A DNA stretch of 33,270 nucleotides from Bacillota bacterium (lineage in GTDB: Bacteria; Bacillota; Dethiobacteria; DTU022; UBA8154). The first letter of the stretch is position 1, and each line of letters begins with the position of its first letter. Made by a program: the position numbers and the translations under genes. Below the pieces are notes generated by a model. It was not told the origin of the DNA. It did no database searches and was given only the letters and a program-made list of their open reading frames with translations. Location of the stretch: contig JAAYFF010000052.1 in the NCBI GenBank assembly GCA_012728375.1, positions 1 to 33,270 on the forward strand, given 5' to 3'. This document shows positions 1,609 through 25,276 of this stretch, piece by piece.

Positions 1609-2586
1609 TCAGTTAGGCAGAACAGTTACAGTACACACGGCAACATATTCACCTTCCTCCGTAGTGGCGGTAATGACTGTGTTTCCTTCCTTCAGGGGAG
1701 CCACAACCCCCCGCCCGACGGCATTTTTATGCACCGATGCAACGCCCGCGTTGCTGGATTTCCAGGTAATATTTTTGTTTGTGGCTGTTTCCGGGCTTAT
1801 ATACGCGGTTAAAACCGCAGGCCTCCCCCCTGCCACCAGCGTCAAGGTAGAGGTATTAAAGGAAATCCCCGTTACAGGAATATGGGCCTGTTTTACCGTT
1901 ACCTTGCAGGTATCCACAAAATTGCCCTCCTCTGTGGCGGCAATAATAATGGCAGTCCCCGGGTTAACGGCGGAGACAACTGCTTCAGTATCGCTTGATT
2001 TGGACACTCCGGCAACGGAAGGAAAAGTGGAACTCCATACAATATTCTTATTAACGGCATTTTCCGGAAACACTTCAGCGGCAATCGTCTCTGCTTCACC
2101 CTGTTCCAAAATCAGCTCCCTCGTCTCCAGGGCAATCCCGCTGACCGAAGCCAGGGATATACTGATCACCTGCTGCCGGGCATCCCAATCAACCTGCGAG
2201 CCCAGGCTTTCGGCAAAAAACCACGCGGGAACCATGGTCGTTCCGTTAATGAGGCGGGGCGCCACGTTTAAAATAACCTTCTCATCGTTGACTATGGCCA
2301 TTCCGTTTTCCAACTGCAGCTCAACTTTAATGCTGCCCCTGGAAGCGGAAACCGTGTTAGTTTTTTTATCCCAGTAAATGGATGCGCCCAGAAATTCATA
2401 GATGGGCCGGAAAGGAAGGAAAGTGGTTTCACCAACGCGGACCGGCGGCTGCGGCAAGGAAAGAAATTTCTCGTTGATCTTCACCCTGATGCCCGCTCCC
2501 GCCAAGGCTGCAGCAGGAAAAATCAGCGCGCTCGTTATCAGCAGCACCATTGAAAAAATGAGCAGCACTCTGAAATACTTTTTCAT
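1609..2586 (-). CDS. Exported stalk-domain protein with two Big_2 domains
   Basis: A 325-residue exported protein. Residues 1-30 are a signal peptide ending AALAGA. Residues 31-148 form a copper amine oxidase N-terminal-like (stalk) domain, recognised by VGETTFLPFRPIYEFLGA and INGTTMVPAWFFAESLG, each followed by a W/D-rich strand. Two bacterial Ig-like (Big_2) repeats follow, at about 150-235 and 240-323, each with the pattern VxGI..., a core NKNIxWxS and a closing ATTEEGxxVxxCxVTV. These domains are typical of cell-surface stalks and not of an oxidase; no metal site is expected. The ATG is preceded by AGGAGGATCCCT. It is the third gene of the surface operon. Confidence 0.85.
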   Translation of the reverse strand: MKKYFRVLLIFSMVLLITSALIFPAAALAGAGIRVKINEKFLSLPQPPVRVGETTFLPFRPIYEFLGASIYWDKKTNTVSASRGSIKVELQLENGMAIVNDEKVILNVAPRLINGTTMVPAWFFAESLGSQVDWDARQQVISISLASVSGIALETRELILEQGEAETIAAEVFPENAVNKNIVWSSTFPSVAGVSKSSDTEAVVSAVNPGTAIIIAATEEGNFVDTCKVTVKQAHIPVTGISFNTSTLTLVAGGRPAVLTAYISPETATNKNITWKSSNAGVASVHKNAVGRGVVAPLKEGNTVITATTEEGEYVAVCTVTVLPN

Positions 2587-2650
2587 AGGGATCCTCCTAA
2601 AATACTGAACTTTCCTTTACGAAAATTCCCAAATAAAAAGTTGAAAATAT

Positions 2651-3541
2651 TTAAAAGCGTATTATATCAATGCTCCTGCTTGCCTCATCCCACAAAGTAT
2701 CAGCTCCCAGGATAGCGCTGATAAAGCGTAGGGGTACAAAGGTCGTGCCCTTTACTATAACCGCGGCACAGTCAAGCTCTTCTTCAACCCCGTTCACCAG
2801 CGCGGAAGGAGTATTGATAGTAAGCAAAATAACCTGCCGGTTATCTTCGATCCTGACCTGATTTGTCTCCTGCAGCCAGGATACCTTTGCCCCGAAGTGC
2901 TCGCCGACAAACCGGACCGGGACCATGGTCCGCCCTTCCTTAAGAAAAGGTGCGGCGTTAAGGGTCACCTGGCTTCCGTTCACCAGTGCTTCGGCGCTGC
3001 CGATCTGCAGATGTATTTTACCTGCAAGATCTCCGCTTGCCGACTCCTCTCCCTTAACCCTGAAGGGAAGAAAACTTCCGTCAGCCCTTATCAGCTCTAC
3101 TTTAGTAAAATGTAACGTCAGGGGCTGCTCCTTTTCCCCCAGAAAGGTTATCTTAAGTAAAAGTCCGTCCGCGCCCTTTTTGCCTGCTCCAACAGGATCA
3201 ACCCAGGCAATTTTAATAACCCCCGCTTCCTTCAGGTTCGACTCTAACAAAACACCTTCCGGCAGCTCCTCCGCAGAGACGTCCTTGGCATTAAAAAGCG
3301 CGGGGTCATAAGCAAGCTCCAGATGCCCCGCAGCCAGGTCTCCCGGATTGTTGTAAAGGAATATTCCGGCTGTAACCGAATTGTGCCCCCTTTCCTCTAA
3401 AACCGCTGTTTCGATCTCCACAGGATTTTCAGCACAATTCCCGGCCTCCGGAAATGCTGCCGCGGGAAAGAATAATACGAAGGCCAAAATTAGGCGAAGC
3501 ATCCTGCTGCTGCGCACACCTTTTATTTTTTTTGCCTGCAT
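2651..3541 (-). CDS. Exported cohesin/stalk-domain protein
   Basis: A 296-residue exported protein. I place the start at the ATG at 3541 because a perfect GGAGGTGA (3547-3554) lies five bases upstream. A GTG three codons earlier is embedded in that ribosome site and would have none of its own. A signal peptide ends near the NCAEN segment (about residue 38). A cohesin-type beta-sandwich follows (about 40-175: GHLELAYDPALF, then a LLLKITFLG strand). Two stalk (copper amine oxidase N-terminal-like) repeats complete the protein, with KEGRTMVPVRFVGEHFGA and VKGTTFVPLRFISAILGA. The ribosome site overlaps the stop of the upstream cohesin gene, indicating translational coupling. The combination suggests a wall- or stalk-borne receptor for a dockerin partner; the partner is inferred. 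Confidence 0.85.
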   Translation of the reverse strand: MQAKKIKGVRSSRMLRLILAFVLFFPAAAFPEAGNCAENPVEIETAVLEERGHNSVTAGIFLYNNPGDLAAGHLELAYDPALFNAKDVSAEELPEGVLLESNLKEAGVIKIAWVDPVGAGKKGADGLLLKITFLGEKEQPLTLHFTKVELIRADGSFLPFRVKGEESASGDLAGKIHLQIGSAEALVNGSQVTLNAAPFLKEGRTMVPVRFVGEHFGAKVSWLQETNQVRIEDNRQVILLTINTPSALVNGVEEELDCAAVIVKGTTFVPLRFISAILGADTLWDEASRSIDIIRF

Positions 3542-3546
3542 CCAGC

Positions 3547-4731
3547 TCACCTCCGTCCCGGCATTTTATAAACAGTAAGAAAATATTTATCTGAAGACTT
3601 CCCGGAGGAGTTCACATAAAATGAGATCTCATTTGTACCGGAAGTCAGGGGAATTGATTTTACAATAGAGGGGGAATGCCTGGTATTGTTGATATAAAGG
3701 GTATCCCCCGAGGCATTTAAACTGACCAGTAAATTTATCGAGTTGATACTGCTGTCTATAACCATCGTATAGGGCATATTCTCAGGGCCAAGAATCACTT
3801 CCATGCTTCCCTGGGTTATCCTCAAACTTTTAAATGTAACCCGGTCGTAGTACCCGTAAGCGCTCCCGGAGCCATCGTAAAGATAGGGCACCTGGTAATT
3901 CTCATCAATAACCCAAAGGGTAAAGGCTTTTTCCGCCCACTCGCCATTATTGGTCACCCTGAGGGTAAAATCATATTTCCCGACGCTTCCCGGCGTGCCG
4001 GAAATGTTCCCGCTGCTGCCCAGGGTCAACCCCGGCGGCAGGCTTCCGCTTTTTCTTTCCCAGGTATAGTTGTTGCCCGTTCCGCCGGTTGCTGCAAGTG
4101 AACAGCTGTAATAGGTGCCCCTATAGGCATAAGGAAGGGTAGATGCTGTGCTGATGCTCACATTGCCCGATGAAGACCCTCCTGAGGGAGAGCCGTTTCC
4201 ACCCGAAGGAGATGAAGACCCTCCTGAGGGAGAGCCGCTTCCGCCCGTAGAAATTGTTCCGGAAACATTATTGCTGCTAATTTTATCGGCAAAAGTATTA
4301 ACGAGCACCAGATCTTTCAGCTCAAGGGTTGTGCTCCCGGACGATTTGACCTGAAAAGCAATGCGGCACAGGACACCGTTTTCCTTAATTTCATCAAAAC
4401 TGCCCCCTACAACCCTGATCCTGCCGTTTGCAGCATCTTTCAAGTTTTTCGTAAATATCCCTGGCGGCAGCACGTTCCCGGCAGTCACATCGATGGCCTC
4501 CACAATCTGCGGATCGTATTCGAGGTCAAACTGAAACCCGGCTGCCCCGGAGGGATTTGTAATGCTCACAGCTACCTCCACCGTGCTGTTGACTTTGGCA
4601 TCGCTGATAGAGTCAATGCTGACAGTTGCCTGGGCTTGAACTGCCCGGGGAAGCAAAAATCCCTGAAGAAAAAAAAGTGCCAGGATGAAAAGAATAATTT
4701 GCAATGTCCTGCGGTGCAGTGTTTCAGCCAT
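3547..4731 (-). CDS. Exported cohesin-domain protein with Ser/Gly linker and Ig-like domain
   Basis: A 394-residue exported protein and the first gene of the surface operon. Residues 1-35 are a signal peptide (long hydrophobic core, AVQAQA). Residues 36-160 form a cohesin module (AGFQFDLEYDPQIVEAIDV, then a GRIRVVGG strand and LCRIAFQV). Residues 163-189 are a Gly/Ser/Pro linker encoded by a short direct repeat. Residues 191-273 look like a putative Ig (He_PIG) domain with LPPGLTLGSSGNISGTPGS. The C-terminal 110 residues form a cadherin-like beta-sandwich-type domain (tentative). The ATG has GGAGGTGA four bases upstream. A sigma-D-type promoter candidate lies 90 bases upstream. No transmembrane anchor or LPXTG motif is visible, so attachment to the cell is unexplained. 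Confidence 0.85.
   Translation of the reverse strand: MAETLHRRTLQIILFILALFFLQGFLLPRAVQAQATVSIDSISDAKVNSTVEVAVSITNPSGAAGFQFDLEYDPQIVEAIDVTAGNVLPPGIFTKNLKDAANGRIRVVGGSFDEIKENGVLCRIAFQVKSSGSTTLELKDLVLVNTFADKISSNNVSGTISTGGSGSPSGGSSSPSGGNGSPSGGSSSGNVSISTASTLPYAYRGTYYSCSLAATGGTGNNYTWERKSGSLPPGLTLGSSGNISGTPGSVGKYDFTLRVTNNGEWAEKAFTLWVIDENYQVPYLYDGSGSAYGYYDRVTFKSLRITQGSMEVILGPENMPYTMVIDSSINSINLLVSLNASGDTLYINNTRHSPSIVKSIPLTSGTNEISFYVNSSGKSSDKYFLTVYKMPGRR
4169..4237. repeat. 27-bp direct repeat encoding the Ser/Gly/Pro linker
   Basis: A 27-base sequence at 4169-4195 recurs exactly at 4211-4237, a 42-base (14-codon) period. It encodes the repeated GGSSS/SPSGG-type linker of the cohesin-domain protein. 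Such in-frame repeats can change copy number by slippage and so alter linker length. Confidence 0.8.
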
Positions 4732-16999: not shown

Positions 17000-17001
17000 A
17001 G

Positions 17002-17214
17002 CTATCTCTCCTTCCCGTGTTCCCGGCTGAGCAGGTGCATAACGCTGCTGGCAATTTTATCCAGCGGAGCAATTTTATCGGCGGCACCTTTTTTTATTGC
17101 CGCCAGGGGCATACTGCTGATAACTGCAGTGGAGGGGTCCTGAACGATTGTTCTACCGCCATTTCTTTTTATCTGCGCCATTCCTTCAGCAATTTCCTCC
17201 CACATCCTGTCCAA
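17002..17214 (-). pseudogene. cheB: CheB methylesterase remnant (C-terminal fragment)
   Basis: Only about the last 60 residues of CheB are present (GMAQIKRNGGRTIVQD..., SSMPLAAIKKGAADKIAPL); a complete CheB has about 350. The receiver domain and the catalytic Ser and His regions are absent, and the usual GMGxDGAxG catalytic-Asp motif is replaced by MWEEIAEG. The first ten residues of this frame come from DNA that, in another frame, encodes the CheD C-terminus. The TTG or ATG start here is therefore fortuitous, and the gene is the right half of a deletion junction at about 17187-17192. The TAG stop lies just before cheR. It may be translated, but it cannot be an active methylesterase. Confidence 0.85.
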
Positions 17215-17235
17215 GAATTGGTATTCCCAATTCTT
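17213..17235. repeat. Inverted repeat between cheD stop and cheB remnant
   Basis: AAGAATTGG and CCAATTCTT form perfect 9-bp arms around TATTC. It starts directly after the cheD stop. The same bases encode KELGIPILG of the ancestral CheD C-terminus, so the symmetry may be a coding coincidence. No U-tract follows. Confidence 0.6.
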
Positions 17236-17598
17236 TTAGCTTACTGATGACTGCAGCAATATTTTTTCTCCAATGCTGATACCTTTTTTTTGAAAATTGA
17301 AAAGCTGGCTGCCTCCGGCAATCTTTGCCCGGAGGTTTTTTCTTTCAGCACCCAAACTTTCCATTTTACCGATCAAAAGGGGAATGGCTGTATCTGCAAA
17401 TTTTGCTTTATTAAAGGACTCATTCTTGTTTTGCAGCTTACTGTCGGCAAGAAGAATATGCGCCAGCCCACCTACCTTATTTACAGAATCATACAAGGCA
17501 ATCCCCACGCATGAACCCAAGCCGACTGTCACAATAACTCCTTCATTTTTTTTAACAGCCAGATCGGCAATTTTTACTTTGATGGTGTTATCTTCCAT
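17236..17598 (-). CDS. cheD: Chemoreceptor glutamine deamidase CheD, frameshifted C-terminus
   Basis: A 120-residue CheD; the family usually has about 155-165. CheD deamidates receptor glutamines and is a partner of CheC. The catalytic Cys30 (GLGSCVGI) and His47 (GGLAHILL) are intact, as are AKIAGGSQLF and the GISIGEK strand. After codon 112 the zero frame ends in ILLQSSVS. The -1 frame continues the expected CheD sequence NIAAVISKLKELGIPILGQD and on through VGGNC, up to a TGA at 17186-17188. The break lies at a run of six As (17262-17267). The last 20-30 residues of the family are absent in any frame, lost in the junction with cheB. It could be a sequencing indel, a real mutation or slippage. 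The start ATG is four bases after the cheC stop. Confidence 0.85.
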   Translation of the reverse strand: MEDNTIKVKIADLAVKKNEGVIVTVGLGSCVGIALYDSVNKVGGLAHILLADSKLQNKNESFNKAKFADTAIPLLIGKMESLGAERKNLRAKIAGGSQLFNFQKKGISIGEKILLQSSVS

Positions 17599-17602
17599 AT
17601 GA

Positions 17603-18208
17603 TTACCTGAGCCCTAAAATCGAAAATATTTTCTCCAAGGCACCGCCATCGGGGAGAATGAGAATATTTCCATCTATCCGGCTTTCCATGGTTCTGATCG
17701 TCGTCCGCAGGAGAACCACTTCATCGTCAATGAGCTGATTTTCAGCCATTACGGTAGATATGATTGCACCGGACATATCCACGGCAATTTGCGGAGGGGA
17801 CGGGAGAAGGTTAAGTCCCGTCATCAGAGAAACCGCATTTAAATAAGATCCCGTCAGAATATTCCCAACCTCGATAAGCACCGAAATGCCCATCTGGTCC
17901 AATCCCCCTTTTGTCCCCGGTATCAAATTTGTAATAAGGTTGGCCGCGCTGTCCAGGGAGAGAACAAAAAGAACGGTCAAATCAACATCCCCCGCAGCTT
18001 TAATATATACTCCTGCCACGGGGATCTCCTCTTCCCCCAGCGACTCCGGGGCATCCTGGAGAGGAACCAGTGTAGCCACGGGAATATCCATATTAATCTT
18101 CTCTTCTCCTAACAACTGGGAAAGAGAAGTCACCGCGTTCCCAATACCAATATTGGCCAGCTCTTTTAAAGCATCAAGCATGTTGTCATCAATTTTAAAT
18201 GCATGCAA
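17603..18208 (-). CDS. cheC: CheY-P phosphatase CheC
   Basis: A 201-residue CheC that dephosphorylates CheY-P and binds CheD. Both phosphatase motifs, (D/S)-x3-E-x2-N, are intact: D12-E16-N19 in LDALKELANIGIGNA and S109-E113-N116 in SVLIEVGNILTG. There is no FliN domain, so it is a soluble CheC, unlike the three-fold CheC-FliN fusion in the same operon. The start is TTG with GAGGTGAC seven bases upstream. It lies between cheY and cheD, close to both. Confidence 0.95.
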   Translation of the reverse strand: MHAFKIDDNMLDALKELANIGIGNAVTSLSQLLGEEKINMDIPVATLVPLQDAPESLGEEEIPVAGVYIKAAGDVDLTVLFVLSLDSAANLITNLIPGTKGGLDQMGISVLIEVGNILTGSYLNAVSLMTGLNLLPSPPQIAVDMSGAIISTVMAENQLIDDEVVLLRTTIRTMESRIDGNILILPDGGALEKIFSILGLR

Positions 18209-18242: not shown

Positions 18243-18608
18243 CTAACCAATAACTTTTTGCAGAGCTTCGACAATTCGATCGGGCTGGAACGGTTTGACG
18301 ATAAAATCCTTTGCTCCTGAATTCAATGCTTCAATGACCAAGGCTTTCTGGCCCATTGCGCTGACCACAACAATTTTGGCGTCCGGATCTTTTTCCATAA
18401 TCTTTTTTATGGCCGTAATACCATCCATATTGGGCATGGTAATATCCATGGTCACAAGATCGGGCTTGATGATCATATACTGTTCTACGGCCTGCACCCC
18501 ATCCTCGGCTTCACCGGCTATTTCATACCCGTTCTTTACCAAAATATTGCGTAAAGTCATCCGCATAAAGGCAATATCATCAGTGATTAAAATTCTCTTT
18601 CCCAACAT
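18243..18608 (-). CDS. cheY: Chemotaxis response regulator CheY
   Basis: A 121-residue single-domain receiver. The acidic pair Asp10/Asp11 (ITDD), phosphorylation site Asp55 (TMDITMP), Ser83 (VVSAMG) and Lys105 (VKPF) are all present. I place the start at the ATG at 18608, which has GGGAGGG just upstream and gives a normal N-terminus (MLGKRILITDD). This start lies within the last codons of cheA (29-base overlap), so the two are translationally coupled. CheY-P should bind FliM and the FliY-like switch protein, and be dephosphorylated by CheC-type domains. Confidence 0.95.
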   Translation of the reverse strand: MLGKRILITDDIAFMRMTLRNILVKNGYEIAGEAEDGVQAVEQYMIIKPDLVTMDITMPNMDGITAIKKIMEKDPDAKIVVVSAMGQKALVIEALNSGAKDFIVKPFQPDRIVEALQKVIG

Positions 18609-20709
18609 TAACCCTCCCATCTTCAAGCAATCCGGCAATATCTAAAATAAGAGTCACCCTCCCGTCTCCCAGTACTGTTGCTCCGGCAACCCCTTTGATA
18701 TCATTAATAAAACTGCTCAGGGATTTGATGACAACCTCCTGCTGCCCCATAAGTTCATCGACTATGAAGCCGGCTTTTTTCTCCCCTGCCTGAACAACCA
18801 CTACGGGATACACCTCCTGTTCCTCAAAAAAACCCATGCCGAGTTCTTCTTTTAAACAGTAAAGCGGCAGGACCTCTTCCCTTAACGTAATAACCTTGCC
18901 CTGCTGTATGGTTCTTATCTCGTGAGGTTCGACAAAAAGATTCTCCCGGATCGCCTCAATAGGAATAGCAAATACTTCTTCTCCGGCTCTCACCATTAAT
19001 GTCCTGATAATCGCCAGGGTCAAAGGCAATCTTAGAATAAACTTAGATCCCTTTCCCTGCTCACTTTTAACTTCCACAGTACCGTTTAAAGCTTCTATGG
19101 ATGTTTTCACCACATCCATGCCCACACCCCGCCCTGAAATATCCGTCACTTCCGCAGATGTGCTGAAGCCGCTGCGAAAAATCAAGCGGATTGCTTCATC
19201 GGCTTCCATTACTTCGGCCTCTTCGCGTGTAATTATATTTTTCTGGACAGCCTTTTCTTTCACCTTTTCAGGGTCAATACCAGAGCCGTCATCTTCCACG
19301 CTCACCACAACATGGCTCCCCTCGTGATGCGCCTCCAGATGTATTGTCCCGACCGGTCTTTTCCCTTTTCTTTTTCTTTCTTCCTCATCCTCGATCCCGT
19401 GGTCAACAGCATTCCGCAACAAGTGGACCAGAGGATCCCCGATCTGGTTCACGATGGTGCGATCCAGTTCTGTTTCCTCTCCGGAAATAATTAATTCTAT
19501 TTCCTTTCCCCTCTCCTGGCTCAGATCCCGCACCATCCGCGGGAAACGATCAAACACCTGCTTGATGGGAACCATGCGCAAGGTCATAACTGCGCTCTGA
19601 AGTTCCGTTGTTACCCGCTCCAGCTGCTCCAGCGAAGCTTCCAAATTTTCATTTTTAAATTGCTTTCCCAGTTCCAGCACTCTGGTACGGTTAATAATCA
19701 ATTCTCCCACAAGATTGACAAGGGCATCGAGTTTCGCTGTCTCTACCCGGACCGTTTTTTCAGAGGAGCGGTTTAAAGAAGGCTGCACCTTTTTGGCAAC
19801 CTGCGATGAAACCGCGCCGCCTTGGTCGCCGTTTCTTTTTTCCCGGGCATTTGCCCCGGCCGTACCTTGCGCTTCTTGTAGTGGGGGTGCGGCTTTTTCG
19901 CTCCCGTCTTCCAGGAAGAGGGAAGATATTATTACTTTTTCAACCTCTGCAATTCCTTTAATACTTTTTTCCAGCTCATTAATATCAAGATCCGGTTTTC
20001 CCAATAACAAAAAAGAAAAATCCCGGTCAAATTTTTCTTCCTCCATAGCCTGCATGGACGGGTATGTTTTAACGATCTCTCCATGCTTCTCGATCACTTT
20101 ATAGACCATATAAGAGCGAACGGATTTTAATAATGAACCTTCCCGCAACCACACATTAATGTGATAGGAATTCTCGCCCCTGGAAGCAGCATCCTTAAGC
20201 ATTTCCTTTTCAAATTCGTTGAGTTCAGCTTTAATAAACGCATCTTTGGCCGCGGCATCCCGTTCGGTTTCCTGATCTTCCGGACTGTTTTCCCCGTCAA
20301 TCCCTTTTTCCAGAGGGCGGGATTCTTCCTTGCCGGCACTTTCATACCATCCCTGGAGTTTCTTTTCCAGAGCCTGAACATCGGAGGAAAAATTTTTCTG
20401 ATTATCCAGGTCGTTAATCATTACCTGGACCAGATCAACCGCCTCAAACAGCAAGTTTACAAGGTCTGTCCCCACGGAAATTTCTCCGGAGCGAAGCTTG
20501 TCCAGAAGATTTTCCATCTCATGAGTCAGCTTCATAATTAACTCATACCCCATGGTACCGGACATTCCTTTTAAGCTGTGGGCAGCCCTGAACATCTCTG
20601 TGAGGTTTTCCGTTGCAGTTGGGTCCTTCTCCAACTCCAACATGCAGTCCGTCATATTTTGTAAATATTCCTGCGCTTCTGCCAGAAAAAGATCTCTATA
20701 CTCTTCCAT
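18580..20709 (-). CDS. cheA: Chemotaxis histidine kinase CheA
   Basis: A 709-residue CheA. Domains in order: P1 (Hpt) with phosphorylated His44 in AAHSLKGMSGTMG; a Glu/Lys-rich linker; P2 response-regulator-binding domain at about 170-262; P3 dimerisation with VETAKLDALVNLVGELIINR; P4 kinase with N-box HLLRNAVDHGIED, G1 VEDDGSGIDPEK and F/G2 boxes SGFSTSAEVTDISGRGVGMD; and a P5 CheW-like domain to the C-terminus. It phosphorylates CheY in receptor arrays with CheW. The ATG follows a G-rich ribosome site. It lies 55 bases after cheW. Confidence 0.97.
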   Translation of the reverse strand: MEEYRDLFLAEAQEYLQNMTDCMLELEKDPTATENLTEMFRAAHSLKGMSGTMGYELIMKLTHEMENLLDKLRSGEISVGTDLVNLLFEAVDLVQVMINDLDNQKNFSSDVQALEKKLQGWYESAGKEESRPLEKGIDGENSPEDQETERDAAAKDAFIKAELNEFEKEMLKDAASRGENSYHINVWLREGSLLKSVRSYMVYKVIEKHGEIVKTYPSMQAMEEEKFDRDFSFLLLGKPDLDINELEKSIKGIAEVEKVIISSLFLEDGSEKAAPPLQEAQGTAGANAREKRNGDQGGAVSSQVAKKVQPSLNRSSEKTVRVETAKLDALVNLVGELIINRTRVLELGKQFKNENLEASLEQLERVTTELQSAVMTLRMVPIKQVFDRFPRMVRDLSQERGKEIELIISGEETELDRTIVNQIGDPLVHLLRNAVDHGIEDEEERKRKGKRPVGTIHLEAHHEGSHVVVSVEDDGSGIDPEKVKEKAVQKNIITREEAEVMEADEAIRLIFRSGFSTSAEVTDISGRGVGMDVVKTSIEALNGTVEVKSEQGKGSKFILRLPLTLAIIRTLMVRAGEEVFAIPIEAIRENLFVEPHEIRTIQQGKVITLREEVLPLYCLKEELGMGFFEEQEVYPVVVVQAGEKKAGFIVDELMGQQEVVIKSLSSFINDIKGVAGATVLGDGRVTLILDIAGLLEDGRVNVGKENFNH

Positions 20710-20764: not shown

Positions 20765-21247
20765 TTATTTGCTGAGCGTGACCTCTTCCAGAGATATAAT
20801 TTCTTCTGTCGTCAGAATCCTCTCCAGATTGAGAATGATCAGCAGCCGCTCCTCCACTTTGCCGACTCCCTTAATAAGATCTGTACGGGTACCGGCAATT
20901 CTGGCCGGAGGAGGCTGGATCGCCGAAGAGGAAAAACGCAAAACTTCTGTTACCGAATCGACAATCAAGCCCACGTTGCTGTCCTGGATCTCCACAATAA
21001 TAATCCGCGTCTGCTCGCTTCTTTCTCCCTCGGGAAGCTCAAAGCGCTTTCTAAGGTCGACAACGGGTATTACCTCACCCCGTAGGTTAATTAACCCTTC
21101 AATATAATGGGCTGATTGGGGAAGGGGAGTAACCCGGGTCATCTTCAAAACTTCCCTCACCTGATGAATATCCACTGCAAACTCTTCTTTTTCGAGCTTG
21201 AATGCTACCATCTGAACTTCCGCTACAGCTTCATTATTACTGGCCAA
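20765..21247 (-). CDS. cheW: Chemotaxis coupling protein CheW
   Basis: A 160-residue CheW that links receptors to CheA. The family pattern is clear: FAVDIHQVREVLKM, the GLINLRGEVIPVVDLRKRF core, IIIVEIQDSNVGLIVDSVTEVL and a final GVGKVEERLLIILNLERIL. The start is TTG with AGGAGTG seven bases upstream. It lies 19 bases after the CheC-FliN fusion gene, which places it in the same transcript. Confidence 0.96.
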   Translation of the reverse strand: MASNNEAVAEVQMVAFKLEKEEFAVDIHQVREVLKMTRVTPLPQSAHYIEGLINLRGEVIPVVDLRKRFELPEGERSEQTRIIIVEIQDSNVGLIVDSVTEVLRFSSSAIQPPPARIAGTRTDLIKGVGKVEERLLIILNLERILTTEEIISLEEVTLSK

Positions 21248-21266: not shown

Positions 21267-23681
21267 TTAATACTTGGGACGGACTATCTCCGTAATTTTA
21301 ACCCCGAACTGACCGTTCACCAGAACCACCTCTCCCGTGGCTACCAGCCGTTCATGGGCAAACAGCTCCACAGGTTCGCCTAAAAACCGGTTTAGGCCGA
21401 TAATTTCTCCCGGCAGCAGGGAAAATACTCTTTTCAACGGCATTCTGGCCTTGCCCAGTACTGCCCGGATCTCCAGGGGAATATCTTTAATAAGGTTTAG
21501 CTTGGCGTACTCCTCATCCGATAGCTGTTTGGCTGCTGCCCCTCCGGGAAATGACACAACCGCCGCCTGTTCTTCCCCGGCAAAAATAGGAACTTCCTCT
21601 TCTTCGCGGGCAGGTTCATCAGGAGGCGCAGGTGTTTCGTCAACCTCGCTTACTTCATGGTCTTGGACCGGCTCCGGATGCTCCGGCACCTCTTGACCGG
21701 TAAAGGCAGAAAGAAGAAAAGAGGTAATCTCACTGGCAAAATCCAGAGGTATCAGCTGCAAAAGAGTGCTGTCAATGAGGCCTTCCACCTCCATCCGGAA
21801 AGCAACCTGTACCAGGGGCATATTCTCATCAAAGTGCAAAGTGCCCAGTTGTGATTCATCGTTAAGCTTCGTATAAAGGATCTCCGGTGGGGAAATATCG
21901 ATCATGCGGTCCAAAAAATCGGACATAGCCGTAGCAGCAGAACCCATCATCTGGTTCATGGCCTCACTGATCGCGGAAATTTCCAGTTCATTGAGTTCCT
22001 GCGGCCGCTCGGGGGGTTCCATCCCCATCATCAAACCGATGATGACCAGTGCATCCTCTTGATTAATAATGAGGATATTATTTCCGTCCAATCCCTTAAC
22101 ATAATTGACCATAACAACAAGGCAGGGAACCGGATAGCTTAAGCTGACCTCCTTCATGGTTGTCAGGGTTACCTGCGGCGCGGTGATATTAACTTTTTTG
22201 TTGATTAACTCGGATAGAGCCGTAGCGGAAGCGCCGAGGGAAATATTTCCCACTTCCGCCAGGGCATCTTTTTGCATTTCGCTTAAGCTTTCTCCGGAAC
22301 CTTCCGGTGCGGGAGCAACTGGAGCAGCGTCATAGGCAGGCAAGCCAAAGTCCTGGATCTCCCCGTCGTCCCCTGCCATATTCTGTAAAAGAAAGGAGGA
22401 AATTTCCTTGGCAAATGGGAAAGGAATTATTTGAATCAGCCGGCTCTGCAGAAGATCGCCTATAGTTAGCTGAAAAGATATTTGCAAAACCGGTTCCGAA
22501 GGATCTATTTGGTTAACCTGTATTATTTCTTTGTCAAGATCGGCACGAAGTAAACGGGGCGGGGAAATATCGATCTTGCGGTCTAAAAATTGGGACATAG
22601 CCGTAGCAGCAGAACCCATCATCTGGTTCATGGCCTCGCTGACCGCGCTCATTTCCATCTCCCCAACTGTCCGGGGGGCATCCTCAGCGGGAAGCCCGAG
22701 CATTAAACCGGCAATCAGCGCTGCATCTTCTTCTTTGAGGATAAGAATACTTTCTCCCTGCAGCCCCTCCTGGTAATTAATCCTGGCAATAACGCTGGAA
22801 AGCGGGTACTGTTCCCCAAGTTTTTCCATCGTCGTCAGGGAAAGCTTTGGAGTTGTAATCTGCACCCGCTGATCGACCAGCTGGGATAGAGCTGTTGCTG
22901 ATGATCCCAGGGATATGTTTCCGATTTCAGCCAGGGTATCTTTTTCCAGTTCGTTTAAAAAATCATCCAGTGAAGGTAAATTTGCCGCCGGAGCGGCAAA
23001 GTCTCCCTCCGGATTTAAAAGTGCTTCCAATTCCGGAGGCGGGCCCTCTTTCGCTGAATCATTTTGAACAGTGGACTCCTCATCGTCTATATCTATCCCC
23101 AACCCTTTCATCAACGGCGTTAAAATATTCTGAAGAAAAAAGCGGGGAAAAAGCTGTATTAGATTTATGCTCTCATCCGGTTCAATCTCCAGAAGAAAAG
23201 TAAAAATTACCCAGCGCTCCTCCTCCGCAAACCCAAGGGCACCGAAATCCCTGTCCGCTGTAGCAAGGAGTTCTACTGACGTGTCCGGTACCTGGGCAAT
23301 ACCAAGAAAGGTTGCCAGAGAAGCCGCATAAGAGCCCATGAGAATGCTCATGGCTTCGCCAACGGCTTCCATCCCTGGAACACCCGCATCTTGAGCTGTA
23401 CTTTCCCTTTCCTCCGGCATTAAACCGGCCAGAAAGGCAGCATCCCGCTCCTTAAGCAAAAGGAAGCAGGTCCCTTCAAGGCTGTTCTTGAAATCGACAC
23501 GCGTCAGAACCGCACCACTATTGTAGCGTTCCTGCAAAGCCGCAGTTGTCATTTCCTCAATTTCCGGAGGGGAGAGGCGGGCAACCCTCTTCAGCAAACT
23601 GAAAAGAGCCGTTACAGCAGAGCCCATGGAGACATTGCTAAGTTCCAATAAGACATCTTTTTCCACGGGCTTTAATTCCAT
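21267..23681 (-). CDS. FliY-like switch protein with three CheC domains and a FliN domain
   Basis: An 804-residue fusion; B. subtilis FliY (one CheC-like region plus FliN) has about 380. Three CheC modules lie at about 1-200, 240-440 and 465-665, and a SpoA/FliN domain at 725-804 (LNLIKDIPLEI..., PGEIIGLNRFLGEPVEL, GQFGVKITEIV). Phosphatase motifs (D/S-x3-E-x2-N): module 1 D9-E13-N16, with a defective second site E105-E109-S112 (Asn replaced by Ser); module 2 D248-E252-N255 and S345-E349-N352; module 3 D472-E476-N479 and S569-E573-N576. Pro/Glu-rich linkers separate the modules. It should sit in the C-ring through its FliN domain and hydrolyse CheY-P there. The ATG has GGAGGAA upstream. A separate FliN is encoded next to it. 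Confidence 0.92.
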   Translation of the reverse strand: MELKPVEKDVLLELSNVSMGSAVTALFSLLKRVARLSPPEIEEMTTAALQERYNSGAVLTRVDFKNSLEGTCFLLLKERDAAFLAGLMPEERESTAQDAGVPGMEAVGEAMSILMGSYAASLATFLGIAQVPDTSVELLATADRDFGALGFAEEERWVIFTFLLEIEPDESINLIQLFPRFFLQNILTPLMKGLGIDIDDEESTVQNDSAKEGPPPELEALLNPEGDFAAPAANLPSLDDFLNELEKDTLAEIGNISLGSSATALSQLVDQRVQITTPKLSLTTMEKLGEQYPLSSVIARINYQEGLQGESILILKEEDAALIAGLMLGLPAEDAPRTVGEMEMSAVSEAMNQMMGSAATAMSQFLDRKIDISPPRLLRADLDKEIIQVNQIDPSEPVLQISFQLTIGDLLQSRLIQIIPFPFAKEISSFLLQNMAGDDGEIQDFGLPAYDAAPVAPAPEGSGESLSEMQKDALAEVGNISLGASATALSELINKKVNITAPQVTLTTMKEVSLSYPVPCLVVMVNYVKGLDGNNILIINQEDALVIIGLMMGMEPPERPQELNELEISAISEAMNQMMGSAATAMSDFLDRMIDISPPEILYTKLNDESQLGTLHFDENMPLVQVAFRMEVEGLIDSTLLQLIPLDFASEITSFLLSAFTGQEVPEHPEPVQDHEVSEVDETPAPPDEPAREEEEVPIFAGEEQAAVVSFPGGAAAKQLSDEEYAKLNLIKDIPLEIRAVLGKARMPLKRVFSLLPGEIIGLNRFLGEPVELFAHERLVATGEVVLVNGQFGVKITEIVRPKY
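21921..22637. repeat. 45-bp exact direct repeat within the CheC-CheC-FliN gene
   Basis: The 45 bases at 21921-21965 recur without mismatch at 22593-22637, 672 bases (224 codons) apart. They encode the second phosphatase helix (EAMNQMMGSAATAMS) of modules 3 and 2. The surrounding modules are much less alike at the DNA level, so strong constraint or local gene conversion is implied. Confidence 0.9.
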
Positions 23682-23858: not shown

Positions 23859-24251
23859 TTATCCTAGTTTGCGAACCCGCTCGATTGGATTAATAATATG
23901 CGTAATCTTAATGCCGAAATTCTCATCGACGATAACAACTTCTCCCTGGGCGATAAGCTTATTATTAATGAGAACATCGACCGGCTCGTTGATAAACCGG
24001 TCCAGTTCGAGAACAGTTCCCGGGCCGATCTTCCTGGTCTCTTTCAAATTTTTCACGCTTTTCCCCAGTTGGACGGAAAGCGTCAGGGGAAAATCCATAA
24101 TCAGCTCCAGATTTGGCGAAAAATCCGCGGCAAGATCGGGGTCGCTTCTCTTTCCCTGGACATTTTTTTCACCCTGAGGGCTTGAGAAAGCTTCATCTTT
24201 AATACCCAGAAGAGCGTTAATCTCATCCTGTGTTAAAAAATTATCCGCCAC
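23859..24251 (-). CDS. fliN: Flagellar motor switch protein FliN
   Basis: A 130-residue stand-alone FliN. The N-terminus LTQDEINALL resembles the FliM/FliN-type switch-complex motif. The SpoA domain (about 50-125) has the pattern LIMDFPLTLSVQLGKS, PGTVLELDRFINEPVDV and ENFGIKITHI. It forms the lower C-ring with FliM. The start is GTG with GGAGG upstream and overlaps the fliM stop by 11 bases. A 177-base gap after it, before the CheC-FliN fusion gene, contains only A/T-rich sequence with no clear promoter or terminator. Confidence 0.95.
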   Translation of the reverse strand: MADNFLTQDEINALLGIKDEAFSSPQGEKNVQGKRSDPDLAADFSPNLELIMDFPLTLSVQLGKSVKNLKETRKIGPGTVLELDRFINEPVDVLINNKLIAQGEVVIVDENFGIKITHIINPIERVRKLG

Positions 24252-25239
24252 TTTCCGCTTCCTCCTTTCTCACCCAATCCGTTATTTGTATAGCCAGATG
24301 CTGGCCCACTGCACCCGGCTGTCCTTTAAATAAAAGCTGATTTTCAACGAGGATATCCAGGTCTTCGCCCTCGGATTGGGAAAATTGAATAATATCTCCC
24401 TCCCGGAAGTGCAGAAAATCATCCAGTGTAACGGTAGTACGGCCAAGAATTGCGCTCAGTTCGACCTCGATCTCCCCCACCTGCTCCAGAACGGCCTTTT
24501 CATAAAACTGGGAAGACTGCCGTGTTGCCTGTTTAAACCAGTACTGGGAAGTCAGCCTGGGAATAATTTTTTCCAAGGTAATATAGGGGAAACAAAGATT
24601 AATCAATCCTTCATTCTCTTTGATGTGAGTAGTGAAAGTAAGAAGGATCACTGTTTCCGTGGAGGCAAACATCTGGTTAAACTGCGGGTTAACATCCATG
24701 GCTTCCACCCGGGGATTTAATGTAACCACATCCTCCCAGGAATAGCGGAGGTTGTCCAGCAGGTGGCTATTGATCTGTTTCATAACACTAATTTCAATAT
24801 CCGTAAATTCCCGGATATATTTGGGAACCTGTCCGGTGCCGCCAAAAATAATATCTATAATTGGAAAAACAAAGGAAGAATTGGTTTCCAGCAGGGAGCT
24901 TCCCATATCGTCGCCCATTTTAAAGACTGTGACCAGAGTGGGAACAGGAAGTGAAAAAACAAACTCTTCGTACGTAACCTGACTTACGGAAGCCAGCTGG
25001 ATTTGAACCGGAACCCTGAGATATGCGGAAAGAAAACTAGCCAGGCTCCTGGCATAGTTTTCATGAAGAAACTGCAGGGTGCGGATCTGCTCCTTGGAAA
25101 ATTTGCTGGGGCGGCGAAAGTCATAAGTTCGATACTCGGAAAGTTCTTCTTCTTCTTTCTCTTCTGCAGTAATTCCCCCGCTGCTGAGAGCGCTAATCAA
25201 AGAATCAATTTCAGATTGAGTAAGAACATCTTTGCCCAA
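24241..25239 (-). CDS. fliM: Flagellar motor switch protein FliM
   Basis: A 332-residue FliM. The N-terminal LTQSEIDSLISAL is the CheY-P-binding EIDxLI motif. The middle CheC-like domain lacks phosphatase residues and contains IIDIIFGGTGQVP; the C-terminal SpoA domain contains LDDFLHFREGDII. I choose the TTG at 25239 over the GTG at 25248. GGGGGTGG then lies five bases upstream, and the EID motif falls at the position I recall in B. subtilis FliM. Upstream is a heptamer repeat array at the end of flgG; downstream it overlaps fliN. Confidence 0.93.
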   Translation of the reverse strand: MGKDVLTQSEIDSLISALSSGGITAEEKEEEELSEYRTYDFRRPSKFSKEQIRTLQFLHENYARSLASFLSAYLRVPVQIQLASVSQVTYEEFVFSLPVPTLVTVFKMGDDMGSSLLETNSSFVFPIIDIIFGGTGQVPKYIREFTDIEISVMKQINSHLLDNLRYSWEDVVTLNPRVEAMDVNPQFNQMFASTETVILLTFTTHIKENEGLINLCFPYITLEKIIPRLTSQYWFKQATRQSSQFYEKAVLEQVGEIEVELSAILGRTTVTLDDFLHFREGDIIQFSQSEGEDLDILVENQLLFKGQPGAVGQHLAIQITDWVRKEEAESGG

Positions 25240-25276
25240 TTCTTCCACCCCCTGTTGATCATATTTATACCTTTTT

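Follow-up and report, generated by a model that had tools for sequence, protein, structure and literature searches.

The FliY family of flagellar switch proteins

At the flagellar motor, FliY links receiving a signal to destroying it. The FliY proteins of Bacillus subtilis and Thermotoga maritima (NCBIfam equivalog NF005995; PDB 4hyn) are encoded in flagellar operons and consist of one CheC-type module with E-x2-N sites followed by a SpoA domain, and the B. subtilis protein, which replaces FliN, carries its own N-terminal EIDALL peptide. This peptide is a CheY-P binding site, described as general to FliY of all motile bacteria (PMC9126983), and FlhG has been found to bind FliY in B. subtilis (PMC12826062). 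Members of the CheC/CheX/FliY family activate water by means of an Asn and an acidic side chain that they insert into the active site of the receiver (PMC3035606). Three other described proteins share parts of this architecture. T. maritima CheC (PDB 1xkr) has the module fold and motifs, and Halobacterium CheC3 has two tandem CheC domains (PMC3579733), but both lack a SpoA domain and neither is a switch component; the middle domain of FliM has a CheC-like fold followed by SpoA but no phosphatase motifs, and it binds FliG. In the two-module switch protein NF005275 (PRK06782; 516 aa), two CheC modules precede SpoA.

A FliY with three CheC-type modules

The window analyzed here, a stretch of 33,270 nucleotides, comes from an uncultured anaerobe of the class Dethiobacteria (Bacillota) whose genome, G000, is in 88 contigs. 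Its features relevant to this work are as follows.

21267..23681, minus strand: three-module FliY, 804 aa (ORF translation; NCBIfam equivalog NF005995)
23097..23681, minus strand: module 1 (M1), residues 1-195; CheC fold; E13/N16 intact, E109/S112 without the Asn
23346..23348, minus strand: codon AGC of Ser112, replacing the catalytic Asn of M1 site 2 (motif reading)
22374..22967, minus strand: module 2 (M2), residues 239-436; E252/N255 and E349/N352 intact
21699..22295, minus strand: module 3 (M3), residues 463-661; E476/N479 and E573/N576 intact; the best-conserved module
21276..21515, minus strand: SpoA/FliN domain, residues 723-802, predicted C-ring anchor (Pfam, module HMM)
24241..25248, minus strand: FliM with N-terminal VLTQSEIDSLIS, predicted docking peptide (Pfam, NCBIfam)
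23859..24251, minus strand: short 130-aa FliN; FLTQDEINALLG at the N-terminus, predicted docking peptide, and SpoA (Pfam, NCBIfam)
20765..21247, minus strand: CheW coupling protein, directly downstream of fliY (Pfam)
18580..20709, minus strand: CheA kinase (NCBIfam)
18243..18638, minus strand: CheY response regulator, presumed substrate (NCBIfam)
17603..18208, minus strand: CheC, both phosphatase sites intact (NCBIfam, motif reading, PF04509 scan)

The fliY frame starts with ATG, contains no internal stop, and lies between fliM and fliN upstream and cheW, cheA, cheY, and cheC downstream. Its product scored 657.8 bits against NF005995 (cut-off, 218). It scored below the cut-offs of both the curated CheC model NF041093 (181 versus 250 bits) and NF005275 (504 versus 681 bits); the latter aligns to M2, M3, and SpoA, with the third, N-terminal module as the difference. 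Pfam matched several CheC stretches, CheX, and FliMN_C (SpoA; PF01052, E = 2.3e-19), the last of which separates the protein from stand-alone CheC. A module HMM delimited three full modules (residues about 1-195, 239-436, and 463-661) ahead of SpoA (723-802). M2 and M3 are 50% identical, M1 and M2 33%, and M1 and M3 29%, with E-values of 1e-20 to 1e-70, far beyond chance. The initial annotation had described three CheC-type modules and a C-terminal SpoA/FliN domain in one 804-residue frame, with separate FliM, FliN, and CheC encoded nearby; the domain searches bear out both statements, and its tally of four CheC-type modules, CheC included, is correct.

Tandem repeats may be misassembled, and the fragmentation of this genome might raise the concern that the frame is an artifact of assembly or gene calling. 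The chance of this is negligible: the three modules have diverged from one another, with M2 and M3 only 69% identical in DNA, and a genome of the same genus (G001) encodes an 816-aa orthologue, 69% identical across residues 1-804, so the frame is not an assembly duplication. A three-module homologue of 821 aa in another genus of the same family (G006) also stands against an artifact, which these two relatives rule out.

An AlphaFold model of M1 (pLDDT, 86) matched T. maritima FliY 4hyn best (E = 8.9e-15), followed by CheC 1xkr and, lower down, FliM middle domains. The full-length model, aligned to 4hyn with 36% identity, shows the same fold three times plus SpoA, connected by low-confidence joints at residues 201-232, 441-462, and 671-720; with a pTM of 0.44, it gives no confident prediction of how the modules are placed or oriented relative to each other. 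The CheC fold is thus predicted throughout, M1 included.

Three modules are rare, two are not

Three modules in one frame were found in 3 of 98 genomes of the class, namely, G000, G001, and G006, whereas two-module FliYs are frequent there and present in several families. In an evenly drawn set of 398 species of the phylum, the module occurred in 276, with at least three matches only in G000; a second phylum search drew on the same phylum and is not independent of this draw. Among the matches listed for named genomes, obtained with few peptide patterns, L034-L040 were the best relatives, with two modules each, and the remaining matches had one. Fifty genomes of another phylum yielded only one-module FliYs and CheC, with no multi-module FliY. 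No description of a multi-module FliY was found in the literature searched, which did not extend to the principal structural study of FliY (Sircar 2013).

The claim that known FliYs carry one CheC-like region therefore holds in part: the three-module form is rare and, as far as the literature searched goes, undescribed, but two-module FliYs are common in the class and already modeled in NCBIfam as two CheC modules plus FliN. The class two-module proteins (e.g., L034, L038, L040, G048, and G076) resemble the present one in their tandem CheC modules, in lacking the EIDALL peptide, and in adjoining a short FliN that bears the peptide in most cases; they differ in having two modules, which arose mostly by independent duplications. 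Among the matches listed, the nearest relatives in the class derive from metagenomes of soda lakes and digesters and are labeled Syntrophomonadaceae, Clostridiales, or Firmicutes bacterium. The genome G081 encodes two FliYs on different contigs (L165 and L176); one has two modules and the other a single module, and each is accompanied by a FliN of its own.

Repeated gain and loss of modules

In trees of single modules, M1, M2, and M3 of the three three-module proteins formed position-specific groups. Module number is labile among close relatives: M2 and M3 are kept by G002 and G008, M1 and M3 by G014, G018, and G022, and only the M3 type by the single-module members of the family, to whose sole module M3 is orthologous. 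The N-terminus of the G002 protein, MEQGPMEREALSGED, resembles the M1 start, MELKPVEKDVLLELS, run straight into the M1-M2 linker, which suggests that G002 lost M1 by internal deletion. Separate events account for the duplications in family f3, whose 12 modules fall in one group, and in G087, whose two modules pair as sisters. A single ancestral duplication, with all nonterminal modules in one clade, was rejected (p-AU = 4.5e-60) after removal of long branches, this hypothesis having been named after the first tree. Altogether, the trees indicate that the CheC modules of FliY multiplied independently in several families of one class and that the three-module form is a rare end point of this recurrent trend.

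Catalytic sites of the modules

Of the six E-x2-N sites, five are intact and only the second site of M1 is not; this agrees with the motif reading of the initial annotation, and an independent PF04509 scan of the whole genome returned exactly five motif matches in this FliY, two in CheC, and none elsewhere. A CheX scan of the genome likewise matched only these two proteins, with no separate CheX gene found, which speaks against CheX as an additional phosphatase. Predicted sites number four in M2 and M3 together, with a further one in M1 and another two in CheC; the phosphatase sites per switch subunit would exceed those of a B. subtilis-type FliY.

The second-site Asn is lost in all six M1-type modules, replaced by Ser in G000 and by Gly in the other five, while the first Asn is kept in all six; in G014, the first Glu is lost as well. 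The M2-type modules of G006 and G008 lack the first Asn, and M3-type sites are intact in all copies examined. Among the multi-module FliYs examined, none lacks a fully intact module. In the two-module FliYs of G072, G073, and G120 (L158, L159, and L169, respectively), it is the second module, and not the first, that is degenerate and has lost its catalytic residues. M1 had been proposed to be binding only. Its history of second-site loss under purifying selection fits this idea, but with the first site intact, one active site may remain; M1 is semi-degenerate.

The extra modules might instead be mainly structural, widening or bracing the C-ring or binding another motor part, much as the FliYs of Campylobacter and Leptospira, which lack active sites, have a structural role (PMC6946799). 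The FliM middle domain, itself a noncatalytic CheC-like fold, the resemblance of M1 to it, and the lost site of M1-type modules would all fit. We regard this explanation as unlikely because all four sites are kept in M2 and M3 and because the long disordered linkers argue against rigid packing of the modules.

Selection on the modules

Between G000 and G001, dN/dS was 0.28 for M1, 0.12 for M2, and 0.09 for both M3 and SpoA, values that are rough given a dS of about 1. These ratios indicate purifying selection on all modules, relaxed yet still acting on M1.

The lability of module number between close relatives means that this number may be nearly neutral. Recombination would then duplicate modules and the extras would decay, a process under way in M1, while CheY-P kinetics barely shift. 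The several independent duplications, the degenerate extra-module sites (G000, G001, G006, G008, G014, G018, G022, G072, G073, and G120), and the dN/dS of M1, 2 to 3 times that of M2 and M3, are all in line with such drift. Against it, M1 dN/dS stays well under 1 (range, 0.13-0.28), the M1 type persists in two genera, and its predicted fold is kept. On balance, we give neutrality a substantial but minority chance.

The putative docking peptide lies on FliN and FliM

In this genome, FliM carries EIDSL and the short FliN FLTQDEINALLG, while the three-module FliY carries no such peptide. An EIDALL peptide on FliY is not part of the NCBIfam definition but is present in most FliYs of our sample; its absence makes the present protein a variant FliY and an exception to the generalization (PMC9126983) that EIDALL occurs on FliY in all motile bacteria. 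By regular expression, the peptide was missing from FliY at all 33 multi-module loci (a few genes enter this count twice), and a peptide-bearing FliN adjoined FliY at 30 of them; at one-module loci, FliY bore the peptide in 66 of 77 cases, and none of these 66 loci had a separate FliN. In this class, the putative CheY/FlhG-docking peptide is carried by FliM and by a short FliN encoded separately, and not by FliY. In a midpoint-rooted SpoA tree built on few columns, FliN and FliY of the class both fell among FliYs from other Bacillota and not with FliM, suggesting that the class FliN derives from a duplicated FliY-like gene that lost its CheC module. Pfam places FlhF-like (SRP54 GTPase) and FlhG-like (ParA family) genes in the window; given the FlhG-FliY binding in B. 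subtilis, the partner of the FliN/FliM peptide could be CheY-P, FlhG, or both.

We also considered that M1 serves as a CheY-P docking domain, compensating for the missing peptide. The peptide-less FliY and the retention of N16 and the fold alongside the lost second Asn are compatible with this role. Relatives with one or two modules have neither M1 nor a peptide on FliY, so that they need no docking site on this protein, and FliN supplies the peptide; we therefore consider such compensation improbable.

A proposed model for CheY-P hydrolysis at the motor

The reading that we find most probable is that of a C-ring-anchored FliY that hydrolyzes CheY-P and whose CheC module has been tripled, with M1 semi-degenerate and signal reading separated from signal erasure. 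The C-terminal SpoA domain would hold FliY in the switch, where the modules, on flexible linkers, would act on CheY-P at the motor. Activity is presumed for M3, adjoining the anchor, and for M2, each of which has two sites, although an intact motif need not mean an active site. M1 has kept one site and lost the catalytic Asn of the other; selection on it is weaker but real, and it would probably persist as a module that binds CheY-P, works slowly through its one site, or is structural. The EIDALL-type peptides of FliM and the separate short FliN would read the switching input and the phosphatase would reside on FliY, dividing reader and eraser, which B. subtilis FliY combines, between two SpoA proteins.

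The proposal that several modules per subunit speed CheY-P clearance is plausible; the effect of extra sites on CheY-P lifetime depends on the copy number, affinity, and activity of FliY, and that the extra modules exist to shorten this lifetime is at most a tentative suggestion. A more general scheme, which we hold to be doubtful, would extend the reader/eraser division to the whole class, with module number (1 to 3) tuning CheY-P lifetime and degenerate extras holding CheY-P. One-, two-, and three-module FliYs provide a natural dosage series for asking whether motor-localized CheY-P hydrolysis sets response speed, and the lineage is of interest for its repeated multiplication of phosphatase modules in FliY, with the putative docking peptide placed on a FliN of its own.

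Other genes in the window

CheD is the partner of CheC. In the window, cheD (17000-17598, minus strand) is shortened to 120 aa, with the rest of the CheD sequence in another frame; CheD is intact in the relative G002 (L115), and the frameshift is either real or an assembly error. Farther along, at 1609-4731 on the minus strand, adjoining proteins have copper-amine-oxidase-N, cohesin, Ig-like, and cadherin-like domains and may form a cell-surface cluster.
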